Below are positions 4,640-50,962 of a DNA stretch of 64,000 nucleotides, one piece after another. Under the pieces are notes generated by a model, which was not told the DNA's origin, searched no databases, and saw nothing but the letters and a program-made list of their open reading frames with translations. Positions within the stretch are counted from its first letter, which is position 1, and each line of letters opens with the position of its first letter. Made by a program: the position numbers and the translations under genes. Origin of the DNA: Sulfuriroseicoccus oceanibius (GTDB taxonomy: Bacteria; Verrucomicrobiota; Verrucomicrobiia; Verrucomicrobiales; SLCJ01); NCBI RefSeq assembly GCF_010681825.2, contig NZ_CP066776.1, forward strand, positions 1,860,001 to 1,924,000, read 5' to 3'.

Positions 4640-4773
4640 TTGCAGATTATCCAAGGTGCGCATTTTGATCAACCAGGAAGTCGTGGCAAGTGTGTCATAA
4701 AGATCAGGTGCACTTTCTACGTGGACTGGGGAGTCTTGACGCTGATGTGGTAATTGTGTTAGTCACCGGCGGC

Positions 4774-5772
4774 ATGAGCAACTTTGTTGGTGGTAGCAGG
4801 CTTCAGATGGAGCGGATTATTGAGATCTTCGAGGCTGTAAAGAGTAATCGCTATCCCAACTGCACGACATTGGCTGAAGAGTTGGAAGTGACGCCGAAGA
4901 CAATTCAGCGCGATATTTCCTTTATGAAGAGGCGCTTGAACGTTCCCATTGAGTACGACAAGTCGATGCATGGGTACGTGGTGACCGGCGATTGGGATGG
5001 CCTGCCTGGAATGGACGTACAAGTGGAGGATTTGGCGGCTTTGTTTTTAGCAAAGCATGCGTTGGGGAGTGTCAGGGGAACCCAGCTTGCGGATGCGCTG
5101 CGGCCGGCATTCGAGAAGCTCACGAGTCGGCTGGAGGGCAAGGTGAATATGAACTGGCGGGAGATGGACCAGGCGTTTTCGGTCAAGCAGGTCGGGGCGC
5201 TGGACGTGGATTTGAAAATGTTTGGCAAGCTGGCCGAGGCGGTGGTGAAGCAACTGTCTGTCGAGTTTTCCTATCGCAAGGTGGATGCGAGTTCATCCGA
5301 GCCACGGCGGCTGAACCCATACCACGTCGGGGAGATTGCCGGGGGCTGGTATGTGATTGGGTTTGATCTCGATCGTGAAGCGCTGCGGACCTTTGCGCTG
5401 CAGCGGATCAAAGGGCTGAAGGTGACCAGCGGGCATTTTGAGAGGATCGATGGATTTGATATCAACGAGCACATCGGATCGAGTGTGGGGGTGTGGGATA
5501 ACCAAAGCGCCCAATCTAGCGAGGTGGTGCTTGAGGTGAGCGGCTGGGTTGCGCGCATGGTGCAAGAGCGTAAGTGGCATTCATCGCAGAAGGTCAAAGC
5601 GCTCGATGACTATGGGACCAAGGTCGAGGTGCGGATGACCTTGGGGAACCTGGAGGAGGTGAAGCAGTTGGTGCTGAGCTGGGGGCGGAATGTGAAGGTG
5701 ATTGAGCCGGTCGAGCTGCGCGATGCGATTCGGGAGGAAGCGCAGGGGATGCTGGCTGTGTATGCGGGGTGA
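4774..5772 (+). CDS. WYL-domain transcriptional regulator
   Basis: From the ATG at 4774 the protein has about 332 residues. An N-terminal winged helix-turn-helix (MERIIEIFEAVKSN, then TTLAEELEVTPKTIQRD) is followed by a WYL domain (FSYRKVDASS, PYHVGEIAGGWYVIGFD, RTFALQRIKGL) and a C-terminal extension with VSGWVARMVQERKW. WYL proteins bind nucleotides or nucleic acids and regulate DNA repair and many phage-defence loci. This one is monocistronic and points away from the riboswitch. It faces the seven-gene operon tail-to-tail across an 835-base repeat block, so it could regulate that operon, though nothing direct shows this. An upstream GTG at 4690 and an ATG at 4807 are alternative starts. 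Confidence 0.85.
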   Translation: MSNFVGGSRLQMERIIEIFEAVKSNRYPNCTTLAEELEVTPKTIQRDISFMKRRLNVPIEYDKSMHGYVVTGDWDGLPGMDVQVEDLAALFLAKHALGSVRGTQLADALRPAFEKLTSRLEGKVNMNWREMDQAFSVKQVGALDVDLKMFGKLAEAVVKQLSVEFSYRKVDASSSEPRRLNPYHVGEIAGGWYVIGFDLDREALRTFALQRIKGLKVTSGHFERIDGFDINEHIGSSVGVWDNQSAQSSEVVLEVSGWVARMVQERKWHSSQKVKALDDYGTKVEVRMTLGNLEEVKQLVLSWGRNVKVIEPVELRDAIREEAQGMLAVYAG

Positions 5773-6607
5773 GGAAAGTAGTGATTGGTGATTGGTGATT
5801 GGCCGGGGCGATGCTGTTAGGCGGGTTTCGATGGAGCAACCTCACTCTTGAGGTGGACCTGCAGATCCGGCGGAGCCTCTGGATGGTTTTCTAGACAGGA
5901 TTCACATGATTTACGTGATTTTTAGGAGGTGTCGTGTGGTCGATAAAAGTTTGGAGAAAGGGGGCTCATGCAGAGACCACGCTAGTGCTAAGGCGCAGAG
6001 AAGAGGATGAAGTGGAGCGACGCCGTCACGTTGGGGAGGGGGAGGAAAGTAGACGGTTGAAATGGGAAACTTGAAATGAAGTGAGCGCGCTGTGCGCGGG
6101 TGTCGGGAGGATGCTCACGCAGAGGCGCGAAGACGCAGAGGTGTCGCTGCGCGACGGGTTTAAGGTTCGCTGCGCGGAAAGCGGGGTGTAGTTGAAGTGG
6201 AGATGACGCACAGCGTGCGGATCTGTTGGGAGGATGCTCACGCAGAGAGCCCAAAGACCCAAAGGTTTGGAAAAGGGGGGGGCTCATGCAGAGACCACGC
6301 TAGCGCTAAGGCGCAGAGAAGAGGATGAAGTGGAGTGACGGTGTCCTCACCGTCTGAGAGACGCCGTCACGTGGTTTCCGATCGAACACTCTCAGGTCTT
6401 AGGTCGGATGGAATGGCCACAAGAAAGGCAAGAAGTCACAAAAGCGGAAGCAAGATGGCTCACGCAGAGACGCGAAGACGCAGAGGTGTAGCTGCGCGAC
6501 GGGTTTAAGCTTCGCTGCGCGGAAAGCGGGTGGGGGGATTGAAGATCTAAGGTTTCAAAATTAAGATGAAGTTTGGCTGTGCGTTCCGCCATCTTCCATC
6601 AGGCTCA
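5773..6607. repeat. Gene-free repeat block between the WYL and HNH genes
   Basis: No gene is visible. Module D (GCAACCTCACTCTTGAGG, near 5833), module B (TCTAGACAGGATTCACATG, near 5890) and module A variants (near 5967, 6115, 6237, 6282 and 6461) are present. There is also a local repeat, GCGACGGGTTTAAG followed by TTCGCTGCGCGGAAAGCGGG (near 6154 and 6496). The phrase TCATGCAGAGACCACGCTAG occurs twice, near 5967 and 6285. Confidence 0.8.
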
Positions 6608-7507
6608 TTATGAGCGGCGTAGATGCTTTAGGCGCCAGGCGAGAGATTCTTCGGCTGGGAAGAATGCTTCATCGTTGGGGAGCAGGATGATTTGGCCATT
6701 GAGCTGGAGAAGCTCCTTTTCAGCGTCGGAGCGGCGGGAGTCGAAGAGCGGGCTGACGTGCCATTTGTGATCCGGCCCCGGGCTGATGAGTTTTTGGTCC
6801 ATGGCCCAGTGGTGGTGTTTGCACAATGCCATTCCATTGCTCGGGTGGTCGTTGTGGCTTTGGCTGAACGGAATTAGATGCGCGGCATCGATGAAGCGGA
6901 CGTCATGTTGCGGGAGCTTAATGCGCAGGCCGCAGGCCGCGCAGCGGTCGTCGTAAATCTGAGCGATTTTGTCGCGGAATGCTGAACTTCGTTTCGGGGA
7001 TTCCTGCACGCGGTCGCTAGCGTTTGTTTTCGGGGGCTCGTAGCGAGTTAGTAATTGCTGGCGATACTGAGGAAAGTAGCGGGAGATGAGCAACCGTCGG
7101 ACCGCATCGCGTTTCTCCGGCGTGTCGATCTCGCGTTGGAAGGCGTCGGAGAACTCTCCGACCACCATCCCTCGTTGCTGTTGCAGCGGTGCTTTTTGTA
7201 GCAACTGTCCTGTTGCGAGATCTTTGGCGACCCAGATCTTGTCCGACTTCAAGTGGTAGAATGGCAGCTGTGGAGTGCAGCTGTCATCCTTCGCCCGCAC
7301 CACATCGAAGAACCGCTTGAAGCTCTCGGTCAACTCCTGGTTCCAGACCACCTGGGAGGCGCTCGCCCGCCCCTGGTCGATCATCTCCAGCGCAGCCAGC
7401 AGGAGCAATGGCTTGTGAGGTCGCTCGTGGCGACCTGAACCGGTGCCGGTGATGCCGACGTTGAGGTTGTACAAGGTATCGGCGATGGAGGTGGGGTCGT
7501 GGGGCAT
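6608..7507 (-). CDS. HNH endonuclease with sulfur-binding-domain-like N-terminus
   Basis: 299 residues. Residues about 20-100 carry RHERPHKPLLLLAAL and later LPFYHLKSDKIWV, the signature of the sulfur-binding domain that lets ScoMcrA-type enzymes read phosphorothioate DNA. Residues 180-245 form an HNH nuclease: CAACG (Cys189, Cys192), IDAAHLIPF (His210), Asn224 and CKHHHWAMD. It is therefore probably a type IV-like restriction nuclease. It is the last gene of the seven-gene operon, starting 11 bases after the zinc-finger gene. In Zorya type II, a MotA/MotB pair is likewise accompanied by an HNH protein. The HNH call is secure, the sulfur-binding call is likely, and target specificity is unknown. 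Modified-base or plain-DNA recognition is also possible. Confidence 0.85.
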   Translation of the reverse strand: MPHDPTSIADTLYNLNVGITGTGSGRHERPHKPLLLLAALEMIDQGRASASQVVWNQELTESFKRFFDVVRAKDDSCTPQLPFYHLKSDKIWVAKDLATGQLLQKAPLQQQRGMVVGEFSDAFQREIDTPEKRDAVRRLLISRYFPQYRQQLLTRYEPPKTNASDRVQESPKRSSAFRDKIAQIYDDRCAACGLRIKLPQHDVRFIDAAHLIPFSQSHNDHPSNGMALCKHHHWAMDQKLISPGPDHKWHVSPLFDSRRSDAEKELLQLNGQIILLPNDEAFFPAEESLAWRLKHLRRS

Positions 7508-7518
7508 GTGGAAATTTC

Positions 7519-7992
7519 TTATGTGTGCGCTTTTGCGTGATGTCGCTCGAGTTTCTTAACGAAAACGCCACAGGTGGGGCAGCGGTGTAGGGTTCCTGCG
7601 GATAGAGCGCTCTCTAGACTCGGTCTAGGTGTGTGAGACTCCCAACTTTCAGCGTGGATGGTGCTTAAATGAAGGTCGATATCCCGGACCTTTTTCTTGC
7701 AGATCGAGCAGGTGACTTTCGGTCCTTTTCGACCATGCTTGGGTCTCGAATCTGTACGAGGGACTGTGGGGTAGGCGGATCTATGAGAGCCAGATTCGTA
7801 GATAAAGGTCTTCGGGGGATCATTGACCTCCCCATTGGATGTTCGTAGAACGGGTATACGCTGAGGTAGGCAAGACCTCCCTGATGTTGGAACGTCCCCA
7901 CTGCCCTGGCATCGAAAGCAATTGGGGTTGAGGCCACCACAACAACATGTGCGGGCTGCTCCGGACTTTGTGGGTTCGCTATTGAGGCTCAT
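7519..7992 (-). CDS. Multi-zinc-finger small protein
   Basis: From the ATG at 7992 the protein has 157 residues. A TTG at 8043 would add 17 residues. Three Cys/His clusters are visible: TCCCGGLNPNCFRCQGSGD near the start, CSICKKKVRDIDLHLSTIH in the middle, and CPTCGVFVKKLERHHAKAH at the C-terminus. The last two have the CxxC...HxxxxH layout of small zinc knuckles. There is no catalytic motif or membrane segment. It sits between the MotB-like gene (66 bases upstream) and the HNH gene (11 bases downstream) and is surely cotranscribed. It may bind DNA, RNA or the nuclease as an adaptor. This role is inference from the fingers and the position. Confidence 0.7.
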   Translation of the reverse strand: MSLNSEPTKSGAARTCCCGGLNPNCFRCQGSGDVPTSGRSCLPQRIPVLRTSNGEVNDPPKTFIYESGSHRSAYPTVPRTDSRPKHGRKGPKVTCSICKKKVRDIDLHLSTIHAESWESHTPRPSLESALSAGTLHRCPTCGVFVKKLERHHAKAHT

Positions 7993-8058
7993 AGTGATGA
8001 CGGGCACTGAATTGATGCGTCTGGTCGTGGGACGTCTCCTCAAGTGAGGATGAGGCGC

Positions 8059-9087
8059 TTAGTCACGGAGGCGAGTGAGGCGCATTTCGATGCGACGCGC
8101 CTTGGCGTCATCCTGTTCGAAGTCGGCTTGTTCCACGTCACGTTTGTCTGATGGGAGGATGGTTTGCCCTGCGGAGTAGCATCGTACGGTGATCGACTGC
8201 AGGATGGATTTCTGCTCGTGAGCGTCGGTGAAGGCATCCCACTGGGCTTTCACGGCGAGTGCGCGAAGGAGTCCCAGATCGTTGTTCGATCCTGCTCGCA
8301 GTGATTGGAAGGTGGACGTGTCTCCGGCAAGCAGGCGAGGGAGTTTGGAGTCGAGGTTGCCGCTGCCTGCGAGAGGAATGCCATCGGTATGTCCGATGAT
8401 CTCCAAGGTGTCTACTTTCGCCCGTCCCTGTTGCTGGCGATCTATGATCTCCTTTGCCAGCTTCTCAAATTCAACATCCTTGAGACCATCGGCAAACTGA
8501 GGGCCTATAAGCGAGCTGCCGGAAGGGAACTGGTACTGCTCCTTCTGTTCGTCGATCCGAATGATCGGTGGCTTGTCGTTGAGGATTCCTTTGAGACGCT
8601 CGACCTCCTCCCACCCGTTATTATCCATCGCGTCTTCGAGCTTAGCGGTGAGTTCTTTGATTTTCGCTTGGAGCTCTTTGTTTTGTGCAATGAGGTCGGC
8701 ATTCTCACTTTCCAGTTCTGCGAGTCTCTGCAGGAGTCCTTGTTGGTCGAAGGTGGCAAGGTTCTCGCGCAACTCAACAATGATGTCGTTGGCTGACTCG
8801 CATGTCTCTTTCAGAGAGGTGACGACTGCGTTCGGATCCGCTTCGTCTGGAACAGGTTCAAGGCCGATCGTGGGTCGCAGGGTGTTGATCGGTGTTCGAA
8901 TACTTATGAGGTCTAAACCACCAACGGCTTCAATAACCGCATCCCTGGGCGCTGAATTACTCTTTGGCATCAAGACAAACACCACCGCACCCAGGATGGC
9001 AACTGAGATGATGAAGAGCGTGATGAACAAATCAGAGACACTAGGCCAGTATCCTGAATTTGGATTGTCGTCTTCGGGGTCTAGCAT
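8059..9087 (-). CDS. MotB/ZorB-like inner-membrane protein with OmpA domain
   Basis: 342 residues. One membrane helix lies at residues 18-40, starting WPSVSDLFITLF. Asp19 falls where MotB and ZorB carry the proton-binding Asp. A coiled coil follows (about 105-170), then an OmpA/MotB peptidoglycan-binding domain (about 180-342) with IGHTDG at 231-236, NNDLGLLRALAV and a final ARRIEMRLTR. This is the layout of a stator B subunit: a short cytoplasmic tail, one helix, then a periplasmic anchor. It begins 20 bases after the MotA-like gene, so the pair is almost certainly coexpressed and forms a complex. The fold is secure. Whether it really conducts ions is an inference from the Asp. Confidence 0.85.
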   Translation of the reverse strand: MLDPEDDNPNSGYWPSVSDLFITLFIISVAILGAVVFVLMPKSNSAPRDAVIEAVGGLDLISIRTPINTLRPTIGLEPVPDEADPNAVVTSLKETCESANDIIVELRENLATFDQQGLLQRLAELESENADLIAQNKELQAKIKELTAKLEDAMDNNGWEEVERLKGILNDKPPIIRIDEQKEQYQFPSGSSLIGPQFADGLKDVEFEKLAKEIIDRQQQGRAKVDTLEIIGHTDGIPLAGSGNLDSKLPRLLAGDTSTFQSLRAGSNNDLGLLRALAVKAQWDAFTDAHEQKSILQSITVRCYSAGQTILPSDKRDVEQADFEQDDAKARRIEMRLTRLRD

Positions 9088-9107
9088 TGGGCTACAGGCG
9101 ATTTAGA

Positions 9108-10688
9108 TCAGTTGCTTCCGAAAAGGCGCATTCTTCTTGATACCCTGGATTTGATTTCCTCGGCCGATCTCTCGATCGACTTCACCCCTTCCGATATCTT
9201 TTCGGAGAGCTGTTCGTTTTCATCTGCCAACCGGGCGGCGGTGCCTTCCAGTGTAGCTCGGGATTCCTTGGCCTCTGCTACAACTGTTTGCATAGTGGTA
9301 GCGTTTGCGTCTAGCTTCGTGTGCACGTCGTTGAGCTGCTCCTTCACGGTGGTCTTTAGATCTCCAACCAGCTCGCGGTTCAGCTGGTTCGCTGAGGTTA
9401 CTTTGCTGGCGACTTGATCCGCACTTTCTGCGAGTTTATGACTTGCCGTCCTTAGCTCTTCGATGGACTCGCTTTGCTTCTTCGTGACATCTGCCAGAGT
9501 TGCTTTGGTGTCATTTTCGAACTTTTCAGCGACCTTGGAGACTTTCGCTCCGACTTGATTGAAGACCTCAGAAGCGGCGATCTCGGTGGCGTTCTCAATT
9601 CGGCTTGGGATGTCGCTAAGAGCCGACTCGATATCACGCAACGTGGTCTCGAAGTTGTCGATACTCTTCGCTACGCGCTTGTTCGATTTTGTCGCTTCGG
9701 AACTGATACCGGACACACTCTTAGCGAGAGTATCGAGAGTATCGTTGAAGCCTGTTATCGCGTTGTGGAGTGGGGACTTCTCTCCAAAGGTGTCAGTGAG
9801 TGAATTATTGAGTGAAGAGCTGCTATCGCTCAATGAGCGGGCTGCAGTATGCGCTTGCCCAACCCCATCACGCAGTAGTGCCATTGCTGGTGCAATTGTG
9901 CCCAACAGATCTCTCAGCCCCTTTATGACTTCCTCAAATTTTCGCTCACGCTCTCCGACCTCGTCGGTTAGCTCTTTTACTTGGTCTGTAACTCCCGAGA
10001 GTTGGAGATGAAGTGGTTCGACGCGGAAGCGAGTGAGGAGGGTTCCTTGGGTGAAACGGTCGAGATCGATGATGAAACTATGCAGTGCTATCGAGTAGAA
10101 TCCCCGGCAGAGCAATACAAGTAGTGTGAAGCCGAGTGCGACGAGACTCGGTGTAAATGCTCCACCCAAACTCTGAATCATTTCTGAGACCAAATTCGCA
10201 CTGTCTGCGACTCCCTGCAGTTCTCCGTTTGCAGTGGTTTTGATGCGGAACGCTGCGAGGATTGGCTTGATTGCCAACAATGTGCCCACGATTCCAAGCA
10301 CCAGCAGTGACGTTGCGATTCCTGAAGCGATCCGAAGAGATTTACGGGCTCGTTCTCTCTTAACCGAGGCTGAATGGAACTCCGACAATGAAGTGGGGCG
10401 ACCGATGTACCATGAAGTCCAGGCGGTTCTCGCCGCGTCGCTCACATGAGACTGTTGATTTATTTCTCGTTCTTTGAGCCAGCGCTCAAACGCTTCGTCG
10501 TTTTCGGCAAATGCGCCTTTCCAGTTGCTATCGAGAACGAGAGCTCTTTTGGCTTTACGTAAGGCATCGCGTTCGACAGCGATAGCTCGCCAGGCGATTA
10601 ATGCAGCCACCATGCCAATGACTCCGACCGCACCGACGATGATCGCACTGAGAGTTGGTGGAATGTTTATGTATGAGAGTGTGATCAT
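9108..10688 (-). CDS. MotA/ExbB/ZorA-like protein with long coiled cytoplasmic tail
   Basis: 526 residues. Membrane helices lie near residues 12-36, 119-143 and 175-200. The second contains VLGIVGTLLAI and the third follows GGAFTPSLVALGF, matching the conserved GxxGT and AFxTSLxGL positions of MotA, ExbB and ZorA. From about residue 230 to the end the protein is an uninterrupted Ala/Glu/Lys/Ser-rich helical tail (for example VKELTDEVGERERKFEEV). Flagellar MotA and ExbB lack such a tail, while ZorA has one. Its start overlaps the stop of the substrate-binding/OmpA gene by 4 bases, and the MotB-like partner follows. It is probably the A subunit of an ion-driven five-to-two stator complex. Tail function is unknown and may involve signalling to the nuclease. 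Confidence 0.85.
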   Translation of the reverse strand: MITLSYINIPPTLSAIIVGAVGVIGMVAALIAWRAIAVERDALRKAKRALVLDSNWKGAFAENDEAFERWLKEREINQQSHVSDAARTAWTSWYIGRPTSLSEFHSASVKRERARKSLRIASGIATSLLVLGIVGTLLAIKPILAAFRIKTTANGELQGVADSANLVSEMIQSLGGAFTPSLVALGFTLLVLLCRGFYSIALHSFIIDLDRFTQGTLLTRFRVEPLHLQLSGVTDQVKELTDEVGERERKFEEVIKGLRDLLGTIAPAMALLRDGVGQAHTAARSLSDSSSSLNNSLTDTFGEKSPLHNAITGFNDTLDTLAKSVSGISSEATKSNKRVAKSIDNFETTLRDIESALSDIPSRIENATEIAASEVFNQVGAKVSKVAEKFENDTKATLADVTKKQSESIEELRTASHKLAESADQVASKVTSANQLNRELVGDLKTTVKEQLNDVHTKLDANATTMQTVVAEAKESRATLEGTAARLADENEQLSEKISEGVKSIERSAEEIKSRVSRRMRLFGSN

Positions 10689-12655
10689 GGTTTTACGACC
10701 CAGACTTCCGCTCTGCGGTTTCTGGCTTTTCCTGCTTCGGTTTCATTGGTGTCGATAGGGAATTCAGAGCCCAGACCCGCTGCCTTTGTATCAACATTGG
10801 ACTTGAGCAGTTCATCCACGACGGTCTGAGCGCGTTCTTTGGAGAGTGGGATATTGATGTCCGCGCCACCGGTGCTGTCGGTGAATCCGAGAATCACGAG
10901 TTGGTGTTTGGGATAGTTTGCCGCGACGAATTTCGGCAAGCGCTCCAAGTCAGCCTGGGCCTTAAGGTCCAGATCGGATTTTCCTGTCGCGAAGCGCAGG
11001 TTGGTGGAAATGCGCAGAGCGGACTTTATGTCCTCTCCGAGCGCCTCGCCAAGTGCGGCTAAGATTCTAGGGTCAACGCTCCCTTGCATTGGCCGGAGGC
11101 GCAGATCAACGAAACCGCAGTCGGCAACTGTGGACTGCCCCTTGTCCGAAGTCGCAAACTGCACAAAGTCCAAAGCATTTTGGGACGGGCTCTGAGGCGT
11201 CCAGGCGACCACGCGGTAGGTGAACGGGTAGTCTTCGGTTGCGATCGTGAACGGGCTTGGTTTCAGTGGTCTGGTGTCTTTGGTTGCTTGTACCGCCAAG
11301 CGTTTGGCCCGGATGTTGCGGGATTCCGCATGGTATGCCCCCAGACCAATAACCGACTTGTCGAGCAGAACGGCCGTTTCGGTTGTTGAACCATCCACGG
11401 TGATAGGCTGCAAGCCCCAGCGTTGAGCCAAGGATTTCACCAGTTCGTTGAGCTCGCCGTTCGCCGTAATCAAATTGGCATTGTCGTTGATATGGTAGGT
11501 TTCAAGCTCTGTTTCCGGGTGTGCCAGCAGGGTCATGGCATCGAGCGCAATCACCTCTGCTACCGACCTGGATTCTTTGAAGTCTGGCCCGAGTTGGGCC
11601 AGCTCTGCCTCGCTTGGTGGACGATTTACGATGAGCAGATCTGCTTTGCCTTCTGCAAGAAGGGTAAAGGCCTGATCGACCGATGTGGTCGTGATCAGGA
11701 TCTTCTCTTCACCTGATCTGACGTAGGACGATGACCCATCCGTTTGAATTTCGACGTCTGTCAGCTGCGCTAAGATGAGTGGCTGGAGAAGTCGGACACC
11801 TAGTGTATCGACCGTGACTATGCGCATGGTCGCTTCGCTGGCATCGAACAGGACAGGGGGCAGCGGTACATAGGCATTGAGTGACTGCTGAATCCCAGTG
11901 AGGGACTCTCCGATTACCATGAGTTGCTGCTTATCGGAATCGCGGCCTTGTGTGTCGTCGTTGCCTCTGGCCAGCTTCGAAGCCCGTGCCATTTCCGCAC
12001 GGACCGATTCGGTGAGGTTGTCGTAGTCGACGCCGTGGGTGTCACATGCACTCTCTTGCTGGGTCGTTTGAGTCGTCTCTTCAAGTTGTTGAAGTGATTG
12101 TACCAGTTGACCTGCTTGAGTGCGTAATTCGTCGGTTTGCAACGGCTGTGACGCCTTCTGCTGCAAGTGCTGCAGTTGTTTCTCGAACTCAGAAGCTTGT
12201 GCTTGAAGGGCTGCAACCTTCTCATCGTCTTTGGCTGCGAGAGCTCCATTGGCCGCAGACGCCAGTGCGCCCACGCCTTGTTGGAGCTCTGCGATTGCGG
12301 CTTGATTCCCTTGAGTGGATTGGCTGGCCGCGATTGCGGTCTCCAAGCTGCCTACCTCAGAGGATAGCTGCTCAAGTGATTCATGGATCGAGTTGAGCTT
12401 TCCTTCGCAACGGTCCGCCGTGATGAACCGGTAGGCGCCTAGGGCAATCAGAGCCACTACAAGCAGGGCGAAAATGCCCTTGATCGCAGATTTGAATCCG
12501 CGAGTTTCCGTCACCTTTATGGGCTCTCTGAAGGTCTCACAGTGCGGGTTGTTACACGGGCACTTCCAGTCTGGAGTTGGGTCTACGATTTCCTTGGACA
12601 CCGAGAGCGGGCAGCTCTCGGTGGGGTCGTCACATCTGAATTTTTTCGAGCTCAT
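10685..12655 (-). CDS. Cys-rich N-terminus, membrane anchor, substrate-binding and OmpA fusion protein
   Basis: 656 residues. The cytoplasmic N-terminus has five cysteines (8, 15, 32, 34, 39: FRCDDPTESCPL, WKCPCNNPHCETF), perhaps a zinc site. One membrane helix (about 57-77) is followed by a coiled coil (80-210) and a PstS-like periplasmic binding domain (about 265-520; KADLLIVNRPPSEAEL, TVDGSTTETAVL). The C-terminal OmpA domain (about 540-656) has VILGFTDSTGG, PLSKERAQTVV and ARNRRAEVWV. Similar substrate-binding/OmpA fusions exist in other bacteria. It overlaps both neighbours by 4 bases. In this operon it may sense a periplasmic ligand or wall state and tie the tubulin-like protein to the envelope. 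That role is inferred. Confidence 0.85.
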   Translation of the reverse strand: MSSKKFRCDDPTESCPLSVSKEIVDPTPDWKCPCNNPHCETFREPIKVTETRGFKSAIKGIFALLVVALIALGAYRFITADRCEGKLNSIHESLEQLSSEVGSLETAIAASQSTQGNQAAIAELQQGVGALASAANGALAAKDDEKVAALQAQASEFEKQLQHLQQKASQPLQTDELRTQAGQLVQSLQQLEETTQTTQQESACDTHGVDYDNLTESVRAEMARASKLARGNDDTQGRDSDKQQLMVIGESLTGIQQSLNAYVPLPPVLFDASEATMRIVTVDTLGVRLLQPLILAQLTDVEIQTDGSSSYVRSGEEKILITTTSVDQAFTLLAEGKADLLIVNRPPSEAELAQLGPDFKESRSVAEVIALDAMTLLAHPETELETYHINDNANLITANGELNELVKSLAQRWGLQPITVDGSTTETAVLLDKSVIGLGAYHAESRNIRAKRLAVQATKDTRPLKPSPFTIATEDYPFTYRVVAWTPQSPSQNALDFVQFATSDKGQSTVADCGFVDLRLRPMQGSVDPRILAALGEALGEDIKSALRISTNLRFATGKSDLDLKAQADLERLPKFVAANYPKHQLVILGFTDSTGGADINIPLSKERAQTVVDELLKSNVDTKAAGLGSEFPIDTNETEAGKARNRRAEVWVVKP

Positions 12656-15636
12656 ACGCTAAGAATCTTGCGGATGTGGGTACGGGTTTTGGTCCACTGA
12701 ACGTGTTGTTTGCTGCCGGTGCCAAACTCATTGATGAGCTTGGATTCCTCGGCTTTCATCGCATTTGCCAACTCATCCTTCGTTGCTGTGGTGGCTCCTG
12801 CAATCTCACCGGTCACGGCTTCGTTGACTCGCGCGATCAAGCGAATGTCGGCCTTTGTTTCCAAATGCTCGATGCTTTCACCGAGTTCGTAGAAGTTGGT
12901 GTCCCCGTTGCGGTCCAAAGTGACCAACTGCACGGCATCCTCAGTCACTGTGATAACTGTAGTTCCCGATCCGTCTGCCAGAGTGCGCTGGCCAAGCCAA
13001 AGACTGGCACGCATGATGTCGCGTTGTTCGCTGGCTGATGGTTGGAGCAAATCTGGGAGTTCGTCGTGCTCTCCTTTCGCATCGATGTTACTAAAGTAGG
13101 CGATGTCTCCCAAGGTGTTCTGCTCGATCGCCTTGGCGTATTTGTCAGCCAGTTCATGGGTGACTTTTGCAAAGCGTGCAGCCATCCAAGTGACTGTCAT
13201 CAAGAGTCGGATCTGAGTCGAGTCGTCGTGGCTCACCACTCTCACAGGATTGTTCGCTTCGTTTGCTGGGCGAAGCTCTGCAGCGATTTCCTCGAACTTG
13301 GCTGCGAAGGCATGACCTTTTGGGAGTGCCAGTACCCGGGAGGTGGTCGGCATGGTCGGCATGGTCATGTTTCCAGCGATCATCTTGGGTTGCTGATCGT
13401 TATGAATCTTGATCAAGCAGGTCGTCTGATCGATGAACTCTTTTAGTTCGTTCTTGAATGCTCCTGGATCTTTTTCAAATTTCGCCTGAAGAGCGTCCAT
13501 CAACGATGAAGTGAGCACTGCTGGGGCGAGCCTCTGCTCCTCGAAATCTTTGTGAATTGATTGGACGTGAGCGAAAACAAGACGATCAGCCTCAATTTGA
13601 TAGTTTGTGAGACGGTCCCCCTCGAAGCTTTCTATTTCGGTCAGCGGGACGTTCTTGCCAAGGAGCTCCAAGACGACGTCCCTGCGGAGCTGGTCGGCGA
13701 TGGCCCGGCAATGCGATTCACTTGAGCGTTGAACTGAGATGTATTGAAGCAGTCCGTCATAGTCGATCTCGTATTTGTTCGAGGTGTGGGACTTGTTGAG
13801 GTCCTTGAGTTCGCCCAGAAGTACGTCTCTACGGTTGCTAGCCCAATCTGCAAAACCTTGAAGTTTTCTGGCTGCGTTTTTGTACTGGTGTTCGATTCCG
13901 GTGAGGCTGTTGGCGATGGCATTGTGATATGCCAAATCCTCTTCCGCAATTGCAGTTGCTAGTTTCCCCAGTAGCAAGGATTTGCAGTCAGAGTGTTGCT
14001 TTCTAGCCAAAGGTTCCTTTTTGAAACGGCGGGAGAGGAAGGTCATCTTGCTCCATTCGATTCTGCGGTCAGAAAGCCGTCTCTCGGTCGTGTCCGAACC
14101 CGATTTAGAGGAACTATTACCATCTTTGATCTTGCGGTTTACGTCATTTTGCAGTCGCTTGAGAATGTCCGACACGTTGGCCATTCCAATGGGATCTACC
14201 GCTTTGCTCCATTCTTCCCGTAGAATCCGGTGTAGCTCTTTGGTGAACTGTTGAATACGTCCTTCCCGGGACGCCTTGAAGTCGGCAATGACAGCGTTGA
14301 TTCCCTGGCCGTTGAGATGTTTCTCGAAGCGAGTATGAAGGGACTCCTCCAGCTTCTCCAAGTCAGTTTCCTGAAACTTGGTGCTGATTTCACGATCAAG
14401 GACCGCTTTGGCGTCCGTTTCGAACGACGCTCTGAGGTTGGTGTGGTGGGTGCTCTCCACCAGATGTTCGTCGAGCTTGGTTCTCAAGGTGTTGAAGGTG
14501 CTTTCTACGACCTTGTCGGATTCGGTAGACTTCTTTCCAATGAAGCCGTCGTTTCCGTGCCAGTTGTTGTAGAGCATCTGGTTGTATGACGAACTGTAGA
14601 GTTCCAAGGCGAGGAGCTCGGTGATCTTCTCTGTGGGAACCTCCCACCGCTGCATGCCTGAGCTGCCGAAACGGAAGCTGCGAATGGGCTTGTTGATAGG
14701 CTCTCCGGGGAAGTTGGGGATCTTGTCCTGGCCGGTAAGTTGATCTTGTTGCTGAGGCGGTAATTGGCCAGAGCAGAAGGCGAAGATGCGCTCGAATGCA
14801 GATTCCGCTATGATGCGGTGCTGCTTCTCGAGTTCGACGTTCTGATCCCCGTTGTTATGGCTTGAGCTCAGGATGATTTGATTGATCGGCTCCGAACACG
14901 CGAAGCTAGATCCCCCGAATTGATCACCGAGGAGGGTTGGGGCGATACGTCCGCAAGCGAGAGCGTTGAGGTCTCGCAGAGTTGCATACTGGTTTTGGTG
15001 GAAGTTTCCTACCTCGGCATCTTGGTAGTTGTCACTGGTTACGTAGAGGTAAACGAAGATTGGGAAACCTCCTTGCATGCTCGAGTAAGGATGCATCGTG
15101 CGGAGTAATGTAACCAAGTCGACGATGCTGCCGCTGCCCGTTCCTCCCGCCAATGATGCGAATACATGGAAAGCGCACTGCTTTGCCGCTGCGGTCATGG
15201 TTCGAACCTTGCCATCAATCGCGTTCTTCACGCTGTCGATGCTGTTGGCGAAGAGGATTCGTCCAAAGCGGCGGCGTTGGTTAGCTCCCTCGATGGTATC
15301 TGATGCGTCGAGGAATCCCTTGATCTGTTCGACGTCGCCAATCCATGGCGCGATGTCTGGCTTCATCGCGAGTTGGTCAATGTCGATCGTTGCGCCCATC
15401 TCCTTGAGATTTAGAAAGCACTTAGGAGGGAGCGAGAGATCCTCTCCGAACGAGGTCCACTTTTTCGTGTAGTTGAGGACGTTCGTACTAGAGTCGATGT
15501 AGAGGAAGTCGAATTGCGTGCCTTTCTCACGCTTTAGAAGTCGGATGTCATCAGCACGTTGGTGCATGACCTTGCGCATTTCGGCGAGGCTGTTGCCTCC
15601 TTGGCCTCCGAGGCCGATAAACAGGTGGTTTTTCAT
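12652..15636 (-). CDS. Giant tubulin/FtsZ-superfamily GTPase (Tubulin_2-like)
   Basis: 994 residues, more than twice FtsZ. The N-terminal GTPase core shows the T1 loop GLGGQGGN (8-15), a T3-like IDSSTNVLN (47-55), RRFGRILFANS (122-132) and the tubulin signature AGGTGSGS (163-170), then NQYATLRDLNAL. Beyond about residue 330 lies a long mostly helical region with several coiled-coil stretches (about 360-730) and a smaller C-terminal domain (about 780-994). It has no membrane helix. Its start lies 30 bases after the upstream membrane gene, and its end overlaps the substrate-binding/OmpA gene by 4 bases. FtsZ-like proteins of this sort were predicted by comparative genomics to act with VWA and OmpA proteins in membrane remodelling. 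GTP binding is very likely. Polymer formation is untested. Confidence 0.9.
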   Translation of the reverse strand: MKNHLFIGLGGQGGNSLAEMRKVMHQRADDIRLLKREKGTQFDFLYIDSSTNVLNYTKKWTSFGEDLSLPPKCFLNLKEMGATIDIDQLAMKPDIAPWIGDVEQIKGFLDASDTIEGANQRRRFGRILFANSIDSVKNAIDGKVRTMTAAAKQCAFHVFASLAGGTGSGSIVDLVTLLRTMHPYSSMQGGFPIFVYLYVTSDNYQDAEVGNFHQNQYATLRDLNALACGRIAPTLLGDQFGGSSFACSEPINQIILSSSHNNGDQNVELEKQHRIIAESAFERIFAFCSGQLPPQQQDQLTGQDKIPNFPGEPINKPIRSFRFGSSGMQRWEVPTEKITELLALELYSSSYNQMLYNNWHGNDGFIGKKSTESDKVVESTFNTLRTKLDEHLVESTHHTNLRASFETDAKAVLDREISTKFQETDLEKLEESLHTRFEKHLNGQGINAVIADFKASREGRIQQFTKELHRILREEWSKAVDPIGMANVSDILKRLQNDVNRKIKDGNSSSKSGSDTTERRLSDRRIEWSKMTFLSRRFKKEPLARKQHSDCKSLLLGKLATAIAEEDLAYHNAIANSLTGIEHQYKNAARKLQGFADWASNRRDVLLGELKDLNKSHTSNKYEIDYDGLLQYISVQRSSESHCRAIADQLRRDVVLELLGKNVPLTEIESFEGDRLTNYQIEADRLVFAHVQSIHKDFEEQRLAPAVLTSSLMDALQAKFEKDPGAFKNELKEFIDQTTCLIKIHNDQQPKMIAGNMTMPTMPTTSRVLALPKGHAFAAKFEEIAAELRPANEANNPVRVVSHDDSTQIRLLMTVTWMAARFAKVTHELADKYAKAIEQNTLGDIAYFSNIDAKGEHDELPDLLQPSASEQRDIMRASLWLGQRTLADGSGTTVITVTEDAVQLVTLDRNGDTNFYELGESIEHLETKADIRLIARVNEAVTGEIAGATTATKDELANAMKAEESKLINEFGTGSKQHVQWTKTRTHIRKILSV

Positions 15637-15666: not shown

Positions 15667-16446
15667 TTAGAGGGTTTCTTTGATGTCGTTGAGTGCCGTG
15701 GTAGCGACGATGAGGAGTTGGGACATCAGCGAGATTCCCAATGCTACCAAGGCAATTGTTTGAAGGAGGGAGAATGGTTTGGCCAACTCCTTGAGAAGTT
15801 TGTCGACTGCGCGGCCGGTTCCAACGGTTACCGCGGTCGATGTCCAAATGTTGGCTGGGGAGACAATCACGGGGTAATCTGAGGAGGGGAATCCGACTTC
15901 TGCGAGTGCGCGGGATCCTGTGAGTTCGGGGCTAATCTCCGGTTCTTGAATGCCCGAGGAAAAGAGAGAGAAATCTCTTCTTTGCTGACTGGCGAGCTCT
16001 GCTGCAGTAGTACTCAAGACGAGTGCTTCTGCCGGACCGTTGATGCGGAGTTCGTTTCCTCCCTCGGAGGGCGGGGTGAGTCCTTCTTGTCCTCCCTTGT
16101 GTGCAATCTTGGCCCAAGTGGCCAGTAGAACTTCGCGATTGAACTTGCCATTGCTCGAGATCGTTTGGCTAACTTCAGCCCGTTGGTTCTCGATCGAGTC
16201 GAAGGCCTTGTGCGTTACCAGTGCCAGATAGACGGATGTGGCTCCGATGACGGCCAGAAGAAGCGATGTCGTAGTGGTAACGAGGTGGTCACCGATTGTC
16301 CACTGCTTATTCCACAGCCTTCCCCAAAAAAACAACAACAGAGGAATCCATACAAAAACGACACATCCGGCCACAAAGATTGGCCACGTAAGGCCTGATG
16401 AGGCGGGATATTTGAGTGCAAACTCTAGAAGTTCAGGGGCACGCAT
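15667..16446 (-). CDS. Membrane protein, first gene of the tubulin/MotAB/HNH operon
   Basis: From the ATG at 16446 the protein has about 259 residues. A TTG at 16458 is the alternative. Two membrane helices lie at about 19-41 (FVAGCVVFVWIPLLLFFW) and 53-76. A soluble loop of about 150 residues precedes a C-terminal helix (about 225-250, LVALGISLMSQLLIVATT). I recognise no family. The middle stretch after the second helix (NQRAEVSQTISSNGKFN, then EVLLATWAKIAHKG) is probably extracytoplasmic. It leads the operon and ends 30 bases before the tubulin-like gene. A TTGACA hexamer lies at 16482-16477 on this strand, 17 bases before a weak ATTGTT. If that is the promoter, the leader would be very short. 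Confidence 0.75.
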   Translation of the reverse strand: MRAPELLEFALKYPASSGLTWPIFVAGCVVFVWIPLLLFFWGRLWNKQWTIGDHLVTTTTSLLLAVIGATSVYLALVTHKAFDSIENQRAEVSQTISSNGKFNREVLLATWAKIAHKGGQEGLTPPSEGGNELRINGPAEALVLSTTAAELASQQRRDFSLFSSGIQEPEISPELTGSRALAEVGFPSSDYPVIVSPANIWTSTAVTVGTGRAVDKLLKELAKPFSLLQTIALVALGISLMSQLLIVATTALNDIKETL

Positions 16447-16804
16447 GGTTGGTAACAATCCGATTTAGATCGATGGTGTCAAGGTTTCGGAGCGTTTGTG
16501 GCTGATTTTGATCGAGCGTTCTGCGGAGCCTTTGGCACTAAAGGAGGCGAGTTTGGTGTAGGTATTTTGTTTGATGGGCTGCTGATGGCTTTTTAGATGC
16601 TCGGAAAACATACACCTTGGGGTGGGACAAGGGCTGGGGGATGGCGGTAGGAAATCGGAAGGAAAATTTGAAATGAGGCGGCGGTGTGTGGCAGGTGGAT
16701 GTCGTTGAAGGTCAGGTGTCGGTGATTAGTATTTGTTGATCAGGACATTGGCGGTCCCTACTAACAACTTTCATAGATGTTAAGTATGGCGTAGTGGATG
16801 CGCC
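16447..16804. promoter_or_regulatory. Divergent intergenic region between the operon and the nuclease gene
   Basis: It holds the start regions of the minus-strand operon and the plus-strand nuclease gene. A TTGACA is seen on the minus strand (16477-16482). It carries only weak traces of the repeat modules seen in other gaps (GGAAAATTTGAAATGAGG near 16661). No gene or clear operator palindrome is visible. Confidence 0.4.
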
Positions 16805-17422
16805 ATGAATCAACGCCCCCTCTTGATCCTGGTTGTATTAGTGTGTCTTGTCTCGGTGCTTTTTGGTCATTCGGCCGAGGAGTTGCGGGGGAAGGTGGTC
16901 CGTGTGGCGGATGGAGATACGATTACTGTGCTGGTGGAACGCGAGCAGTATAAAGTGCGGTTGGATGGGATTGATGCGCCTGAGATGGGGCAGGCTTTTG
17001 GTAATAGATCGAAGCAGGCGTTGTCGGGTCAGGTGGCTGGAAAGCAGGTGGTGGTGAAGGTGAATGGTAAGGACAAGTACGGGCGGACGATTGGTGTGGT
17101 CATTTTAGACAATACCAATGTGAATGAGTGGATGGTGGCTGAGGGGTGGGCGTGGCAGTATACTAAGTATAACCGGAGTGAACGCTTGGCGCGGATGGAG
17201 GCGCGCGCCAGGGAGCTTGGGCTCGGACTGTGGGCGGGGGCGAACCCAGTGGCGCCGTGGGAGTACCGGCCGCTGAAGAAGAAACGCCCGGTTTCTGGCT
17301 ATTGGTTGAATACATCGTCGAACACGCGGCACAACTCGAACTGTGAGTGGTATGAGAACACGGCGCGTGGAAGGACGTGTGGGAAGGATGAGGGTAAGCC
17401 TTGCGGGAGTTGCGGCGGGTGA
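16805..17422 (+). CDS. Secreted staphylococcal-nuclease-like (thermonuclease) protein
   Basis: 205 residues with an N-terminal signal peptide (LLILVVLVCLVSVLFGHSA). The SNase domain carries VADGDTITVL, VRLDGIDAPEMGQ (catalytic Arg and calcium-site Asp) and KYGRTIGVVI, so it is probably an active calcium-dependent nuclease outside the cytoplasm. The tail (SGYWLNTSSNTRH, then CEWYENTARGRTCG and CGSCGG) is a Cys-rich module often attached to bacterial SNase domains. It begins divergently from the operon at 16446 and is alone. A second SNase-like gene is at 47686. Its location beside the defence-like operon may be chance. Confidence 0.88.
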   Translation: MNQRPLLILVVLVCLVSVLFGHSAEELRGKVVRVADGDTITVLVEREQYKVRLDGIDAPEMGQAFGNRSKQALSGQVAGKQVVVKVNGKDKYGRTIGVVILDNTNVNEWMVAEGWAWQYTKYNRSERLARMEARARELGLGLWAGANPVAPWEYRPLKKKRPVSGYWLNTSSNTRHNSNCEWYENTARGRTCGKDEGKPCGSCGG

Positions 17423-50047: not shown

Positions 50048-50129
50048 TGCTCGAGGGGGGACTCGAACCCCCACGGGTCGCCCCACATGATCCTTAGTCA
50101 TGCGCGTCTACCAATTCCGCCACCCGAGC
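50048..50129 (-). tRNA. tRNA-Leu (anticodon AAG), copy 1
   Basis: An 82-base tRNA with a long variable arm (TGGGGCGACCCG). The acceptor GCTCGGG pairs with CTCGAGC. The anticodon stem CATGA/TCATG encloses CTAAGGA, placing A-A-G at 34-36 with G37. CCA is not encoded. It has its own terminator at 50040-50009. It is identical to the copy at 50881-50962. A34 in a bacterial tRNA-Leu is unusual, because A34 is normally confined to tRNA-Arg(ACG). Confidence 0.93.
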
Positions 50130-50880: not shown

Positions 50881-50962
50881 TGCTCGAGGGGGGACTCGAA
50901 CCCCCACGGGTCGCCCCACATGATCCTTAGTCATGCGCGTCTACCAATTCCGCCACCCGAGC
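50881..50962 (-). tRNA. tRNA-Leu (anticodon AAG), copy 2
   Basis: Identical 82-base tRNA to copy 1, 833 bases away. The flanks are also duplicated: the terminator downstream, and upstream the AT-rich GTGGGAAAATTTTGCGTGGT and CGCGCAACTT segments. The tRNA was thus duplicated as a unit of about 200 bases, and the DUF3592 gene lies between the copies. Confidence 0.93.

Follow-up and report, generated by a model that had tools for sequence, protein, structure and literature searches.

The tubulin homologues TubZ, PhuZ, BtubA/B and CetZ share the tubulin fold that is predicted for the N-terminal domain of FtsZ-like 1 (FtsZl1), and they are not known to have a long C-terminal extension or an envelope operon. 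FtsZl1 (Pfam PF13809, Tubulin_2) was already defined as a family in 2010, with a norm of about 1000 residues and a long helical C-terminal part, and the partners named at that time were vWA proteins, kinases, a P-loop GTPase and OmpA proteins (Makarova & Koonin 2010, PMC2875224). The role of FtsZl1 has merely been guessed since. Our study concerns an FtsZl1 gene within a stretch of 64,000 nucleotides of Sulfuriroseicoccus oceanibius (hereafter the window), where it shares an operon with genes for a MotA-like and a MotB-like protein.

The window protein resembles the FtsZl1 proteins of the 2010 account in its Tubulin_2 N-terminus, its OmpA-type neighbours and the presence of a separate FtsZ in the genome, but it differs in its MotA/TolQ-like and MotB-like partners, which are not named in that text, although the OmpA proteins listed there could include some (PMC2875224). 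As in the 5:2 motors Tol-Pal, Ton and MotAB (PMC9389320), a predicted channel protein is combined with a single-TM, Asp-bearing, wall-binding partner; unlike those systems, the operon contains no recognised TolA, TolB or flagellar gene and a tubulin-type protein is added. The ZorAB pair of Zorya (Mariano et al. 2025, PMC11890865) is likewise of the MotA/MotB type, with a long tail like that of ZorA, a B subunit that binds the wall and an Asp in the membrane, and a nuclease gene lies nearby in this one genome. In contrast to Zorya as described there, the similarity to ZorA is very weak, the nuclease is not conserved, and a tubulin homologue and a solute-binding-like/OmpA protein stand in place of ZorC and ZorD.

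No description of a link between FtsZl1 and MotAB was found in the open-licence literature searched, a coverage outside which the 2010 supplements, with their unnamed associated families, fall. The window protein by itself is a further member of a described family and is not new; the novelty looks to be the motor-linked operon, undescribed as far as open-licence papers show. The operon suggests a machine through which the envelope is linked with a tubulin-type switch, and the conserved motor pair gives FtsZl1 a concrete, testable partner. If this is confirmed, an ion-driven motor would here be connected to such a switch.

The FtsZl1 protein and its tubulin-type domain

The gene at 12652-15636, originally read as encoding a tubulin-superfamily GTPase, is one unbroken frame of 994 aa at exactly these coordinates; it lies on the minus strand, and the plus-strand reading of the same interval has many stops. 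The loop motifs claimed for the first 230 residues were found as GLGGQGG from residue 8 and AGGTGSGS from residue 163 (Table 1), and among the 33 ORFs that reach 300 aa when the window is read in six frames, only FtsZl1 has either of them. Pfam Tubulin_2 matched residues 5-348 (E = 3e-33, 116 bits vs a cut-off of 27), with Tubulin (PF00091) under its cut-off, and a profile of 18 FtsZl1 relatives aligned around T4 with a set of seven FtsZ proteins from the order (hhalign P 3e-6), the alignment extending from T1 onwards under a looser setting. These matches, together with the fold of the N-terminal model given below, support a place for the protein in the tubulin superfamily. No T7 catalytic loop was identified in the alignment of 18 relatives. 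The protein had also been proposed to be something other than a division ring, which agrees with our data: it is not the division FtsZ, as the genome encodes a separate FtsZ, beside a gene judged FtsA-like by its sequence and not by a family call.

Residue 303 (window 14728-14730) is Gln in the window protein and Glu in 17 of the 18 relatives, where it forms part of a TGED motif directly after the presumed H7. Gln303 might be a mark of lowered GTP hydrolysis.

Structure prediction was run on an input alignment of two rows only. The full-length AlphaFold model had a mean pLDDT of 33.6 and was for this reason left out of the fold claims, whereas the model of residues 1-362 (pLDDT 43.6, pTM 0.53) was used solely to ask whether its nearest folds are tubulins. 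Its best matches in the PDB were CetZ2 (Foldseek 6e-5), tubulins, TubZ and PhuZ. Structural realignment gave Z 17.9 for CetZ2 over 184 residues at an rmsd of 2.5 Å, and Z 16.6 for FtsZ; all 50 matches listed by this realignment were, by entry title, tubulin, gamma-tubulin, CetZ, FtsZ or tubulin-containing complexes. A predicted fold unrelated to tubulin, which the original prediction had itself named as evidence against it, was thus not what we obtained, the model being nearest to CetZ, tubulin and FtsZ at its pLDDT of 43.6. The fold-matched part reaches about residue 297, and this low-confidence model has a strand (251-257) and a helix (265-289) at the expected place of T6-H7. These elements could not be placed in the 2010 account (Makarova & Koonin, PMC2875224), and their predicted position at 251-289 is a lead rather than a result.

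Beyond the GTPase domain, a long extension does exist, although its length is closer to 645 than to the 660 residues first given, as Tubulin_2 ends near residue 348. Its description as being without match to FtsZ or TubZ was misleading, since the whole architecture (an FtsZ-like N-terminus that carries T1 and T4, a long C-terminal region and about 1000 residues in total) matches FtsZl1 as already described. The 18 aligned relatives all measure 969-1040 residues, which, with the 2010 description, makes a long extension normal for the family; it is conserved throughout the family and has no Pfam family above cut-off. The term 'coiled' was not supported. An extended mid-protein coiled coil is an FtsZl1-family trait, but in the window protein, by a simple test only, a heptad z of 2 was reached in one of 35 windows of 42 residues across the whole protein, that is, at chance level, whereas the same measure gave eight windows at 2.8-6.1 in the neighbouring MotA-like tail. 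'Helical' is therefore the safer label, and it agrees with the predicted structure of the extension, albeit in a model of very low confidence. Departures from the usual layout were seen elsewhere: L115 carries three tandem FtsZl1-like frames, two of them short (5418-10343), and L117 (7530-8747) and L118 (205-1422) encode FtsZl1-like proteins of 405 residues without the long extension.

Table 1. Features of the FtsZl1 locus and of two related clusters (window positions unless a locus is named)
Feature	Position	Strand	Evidence
299-aa HNH nuclease, like phosphorothioate-dependent restriction enzymes	6608..7507	-	short gap; HNH_2 2.5e-9
174-aa Cys-rich, zinc-finger-like protein	7519..8043	-	short gap to operon; only weak zf match
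MotB/ZorB-like protein with Asp19 in the WPSVSDLFITLF membrane segment, then a coiled coil and a putative OmpA-like C-terminus	8059..9087	-	
MotA/TolQ-like channel protein, ~300-residue coiled-coil tail	9108..10688	-	3 predicted TM; heptads 225-518
656-aa TM/solute-binding-like/OmpA membrane protein	10685..12655	-	OmpA 7e-13; TM helix 56-74
FtsZ-like 1 (FtsZl1, Tubulin_2) GTPase-domain protein, 994 aa	12652..15636	-	Tubulin_2 3e-33; 18-sequence full-length alignment
T4 (tubulin signature) loop AGGTGSGS, residues 163-170	15127..15150	-	residues 164-169 in 18/18
T1 loop GLGGQGG, residues 8-14	15595..15615	-	glycines kept in 17-18/18 relatives
263-aa protein, 3 predicted TM helices, first operon gene	15667..16458	-	ORF; 3 hydrophobic segments
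vWA, PP2C, Ser/Thr kinase + MotA/MotB-like pair	L119 4721-10275		Pfam names
vWA, PP2C, Ser/Thr kinase + MotA/MotB-like pair	L120 8757-14478		by position

The operon and its motor-type proteins

On the minus strand the gene order is 3-TM protein, FtsZl1, TM/solute-binding-like/OmpA protein, MotA-like and MotB-like, with 4-base ATGA overlaps between the FtsZl1 and OmpA genes and between the OmpA and MotA-like genes. The tie to the envelope that had been suggested from OmpA-type proteins is strongly supported by this arrangement, in which MotA-like and MotB-like proteins join the OmpA-type protein in one operon. Pfam gave no family above cut-off for the 3-TM protein, which has homologues at the same position in L030, L033, L034 and L107 (2e-32 to 5e-44) and weaker ones in L032, L036, L037, L109, L110 and L114. 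The 656-aa protein begins with a short Cys-rich N-terminus, followed by the TM helix, a solute-binding-like segment and an OmpA peptidoglycan-binding domain (554-647); the solute-binding signal comes from two sub-cut-off matches, SBP_bac_11 (0.001) and a PstS-type model (1e-5 over 436-517).

The MotA-like protein, a single-copy gene in the genome, is not recognised by PF01618 (MotA_ExbB), and among seven MotA-like relatives the same Pfam model matched one, at E = 0.01. However, a profile of 15 relatives matched 23 MotA/TolQ/ExbB proteins with a hhalign P of 3.7e-5, compared to 0.018, 0.52 and 0.29 for controls and 0.0011 when only the seven-row profile was used; the reference set was made from 24 extracted frames, of which the doubtful long frame L149 was dropped. 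Two helices, one with GI.GTL and the other with A..PS..A...T, are common to the MotA-like proteins, and by the profile comparison their membrane region is a distant homologue of MotA/TolQ/ExbB.

The MotB-like protein has one predicted TM segment with an Asp near its start, and W14, P15 and D19 are invariant in all six members. D19 sits at the place of the membrane Asp that is the ion-binding residue in MotB and ZorB (PMC9389320, PMC11890865). ZorB models matched the protein at 4e-8, and Pfam OmpA was found in two of the six members, the window's own not among them.

Distribution and phylogeny

FtsZl1 (E at most 1e-10) was present in 19 of the 317 genomes of the order, and the MotA-like gene adjoins it in 11 of these (G000, G045, G047, G084, G106, G114, G139, G533, G613, G620 and G623). 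G106 and G114 are near copies, and in G620 the adjacency is inferred because the locus is split over two contig ends. A MotA-like neighbour is absent in seven (G068, G075, G634, G635, G641, G587 and G657), so that the FtsZl1 family as a whole can do without the motor; the remaining genome, G113, was kept outside this tally, as its gene lies at a contig end.

The five-gene order (TM protein, FtsZl1, OmpA, MotA, MotB) recurs in the window, the near copies L030 and L031, L033, L034 and L032. It is accompanied by extra MotA-like genes in L036 and L112 and divided between two contigs in L107/L108, and this order was kept although the FtsZl1 proteins are only 24-41 % identical. L109, at a contig end, and L110, at the end of its stretch, contain three to four MotA-like genes with no MotB seen. 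The MotA-like paralogues (L109 1-4675 and L110 13531-17872) follow one another directly after the FtsZl1 and OmpA-type genes, an arrangement that points to a channel ring of hetero-oligomeric make-up; rows of three or four such genes were counted in the genomes G613 and G533.

MotB-like proteins were found in 10 of the 317 genomes, eight of them with FtsZl1; no probability is attached to these counts, since the genomes are related and the MotB profile itself derives from FtsZl1-adjacent genes. In the other two (L119 and L120) the MotA/MotB-like pair occurs without FtsZl1, in a vWA-PP2C-kinase-MotA-MotB cluster (Table 1). A PP2C gene also adjoins FtsZl1 in L113 and, judged by position and likeness, probably in L114.

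Phylogenetic inference on 18 FtsZl1 rows placed all 10 sampled motor-linked rows in one clade of 12 (100/100), its other two rows being one that is not judgeable and one that is PP2C-linked (non-motor). The six rows outside this clade, all without the motor, comprise two from the same order, two from the same class, one from another phylum and one from a Paraburkholderia replicon. Near copies and truncated, distant or partial loci were omitted from the tree (L028, L029, L031, L035, L070, L071, L073, L074, L114, L115, L116, L117, L118 and L169), and L037 was placed in no group because its contig stops after FtsZl1. Given the conserved neighbourhoods and the single-clade distribution, motor coupling has the look of a stable elaboration of FtsZl1 that is specific to one lineage.

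Genes flanking the operon

Downstream of the operon lie a zinc-finger-like gene and an HNH nuclease gene. The zinc-finger-like protein was found in two of 239 genomes of the order, one being this genome and the second match weak and broken; it is an accessory whose role is uncertain. The HNH protein matched NF045808 (3e-32) at 111.8 bits, under the cut-off of 180, though residues 27-295 were covered, and it matched ZorE2 only partially (4e-4). With this genome counted, 70 of 239 genomes of the order encode a relative of it, and in G139 the relative is on a different contig from the FtsZl1 operon. Homologues of the HNH or zinc-finger protein were absent among the ORFs picked beside other FtsZl1 operons. 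On these grounds the HNH gene is a probable accessory cargo, and the idea that it is a conserved effector is weakened by its wide, independent occurrence.

The left flank contains a WYL-domain HTH regulator (window 4690-5772), and a thermonuclease-type (SNase) gene is divergent from the operon (window 16805-17422). Thermonuclease-type genes were also seen by MotB-like clusters on Rhizobium and Sinorhizobium plasmids; in the Rhizobium plasmids the MotB-like relative adjoins a coiled-coil-type membrane protein, two hypothetical proteins and the thermonuclease-type gene. The relevance of this shared gene is suggestive only. Elsewhere, L034 adjoins a type IV restriction-type protein, and the neighbours of L033 and L032 are an alcohol dehydrogenase and a Y-family polymerase.

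Proposed machine and alternative explanations

We propose, with about an even chance of being correct, that FtsZl1 acts as a switch on the cytoplasmic side of an ion-driven machine which spans the envelope. The sequences themselves show the conserved gene order, the tubulin-type domain, the Asp in the membrane segment of the MotB-like protein, the OmpA domain and the coiled-coil tail of the MotA-like protein; complex formation, ion flow, GTP use and the biological task we infer. The MotA-like and MotB-like proteins would form a 5:2-type ion channel or motor, anchored to the wall via OmpA-like domains, and the solute-binding-like/OmpA protein may act as a second wall-anchored sensor that reads the periplasm or the wall, its Cys-rich cytoplasmic end recruiting FtsZl1. 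The state of the motor or sensor would travel via the MotA tail to FtsZl1, and the output would be its GTP state or its assembly at the membrane. The machine probably senses envelope stress or invasion; its most likely task would be to sense envelope stress or breach and to act locally, by repair, remodelling or recruitment of an effector. The scaffold or sensor role originally suggested for FtsZl1 is plausible on this proposal, although operon membership alone need not mean a physical complex. Other points weigh against the proposal: PF01618 misses the MotA-like protein, FtsZl1 lacks a MotA-like neighbour in seven of 19 genomes, the motor pair occurs without FtsZl1 in two genomes, no T7 loop was identified, the window protein has Gln303 where nearly all relatives have Glu, and the structure models are of low confidence. 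A stronger version is possible but somewhat doubtful: a rotary motor of the MotAB/TolQR/ZorAB kind would be directly coupled to FtsZl1, with motion of the wall-anchored stator or a breach of the envelope driving GTP-dependent switching or assembly under the membrane in an antiphage or damage response, and with some rings hetero-oligomeric, built from three to four paralogues.

The locus could instead be a Zorya-like antiphage system in a defence island, in which the MotA/MotB-like proteins sense how the envelope is perturbed when a phage enters, with FtsZl1 as a relaying or clustering component and the HNH protein as the enzyme that cuts DNA. The motor pair does resemble ZorA/ZorB (PADLOC), and the HNH gene, with its weak ZorE likeness and restriction-type matches, lies directly downstream on the same strand, as does the zinc-finger-like gene; the WYL regulator near the operon, the type IV restriction-type neighbour in L034 and the patchy distribution (19/317 and 10/387 genomes) point the same way. 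However, the best ZorA match falls in the coiled-coil tail of the MotA-like protein, NCBIfam ZorA models gave 12-21 bits vs cut-offs of 190-500 (the best 20.7 vs 250), and no ZorC or ZorD match was found in the six operon proteins scanned. The HNH relatives are widespread, with the G139 copy off the operon, HNH and zinc-finger homologues are missing beside the other operons sampled, and L033 and L032 have the dehydrogenase and polymerase neighbours named above. We consider this defence reading rather unlikely, and membership of Zorya proper was rejected, as the ZorA scores lie far below their cut-offs, the six operon proteins gave no ZorC or ZorD match and the HNH match to ZorE2 was only partial.

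The 2010 proposal that FtsZl1 is a membrane-remodelling or vesicle machine, extended here to a motor pair that powers the moving or pinching of envelope layers in the manner of Tol-Pal, draws on the context analysis of Makarova & Koonin (PMC2875224) and on the fact that OmpA-domain proteins stand together with a TolQ-like motor, as in Tol-Pal. Yet no remodelling protein family was seen in the operon, the patchy distribution is unlike that of an essential envelope function, and doubt on remodelling was voiced by a reviewer of the 2010 paper (PMC2875224); we regard this explanation as unlikely. It is very improbable that FtsZl1 and the motor pair work separately and share their locus by chance or in a loose neighbourhood. 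Such a loose neighbourhood would suit the seven of 19 genomes with FtsZl1 alone and the two of 10 with the motor pair alone, but the genes in the window have ATGA overlaps, their order is conserved across FtsZl1 proteins of 24-41 % identity, and the motor state tracks the FtsZl1 tree. The motor-linked switch is the reading that we prefer.

Mobility and genomic setting

A phage origin of FtsZl1 was considered and rejected, as no relative was found in IMG/VR or in 50,697 phage records. The plasmid scan gave two weak matches only, in poorly annotated records. The same-genus genome G001 had no FtsZl1 match at 1e-10 and offered no clear syntenic site, the counterpart of the right flank being on contig C14 and that of the left flank on C105. 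In a test for a horizontally gained island, the GC content of the operon was 0.52-0.55, compared to about 0.54-0.57 in the left flank and 0.54-0.63 in the right flank. Further along the window, at 50048-50129 and 50881-50962, ARAGORN made two tRNA-Leu calls, which may be false, both with the anticodon AAG, which is unusual in bacteria.
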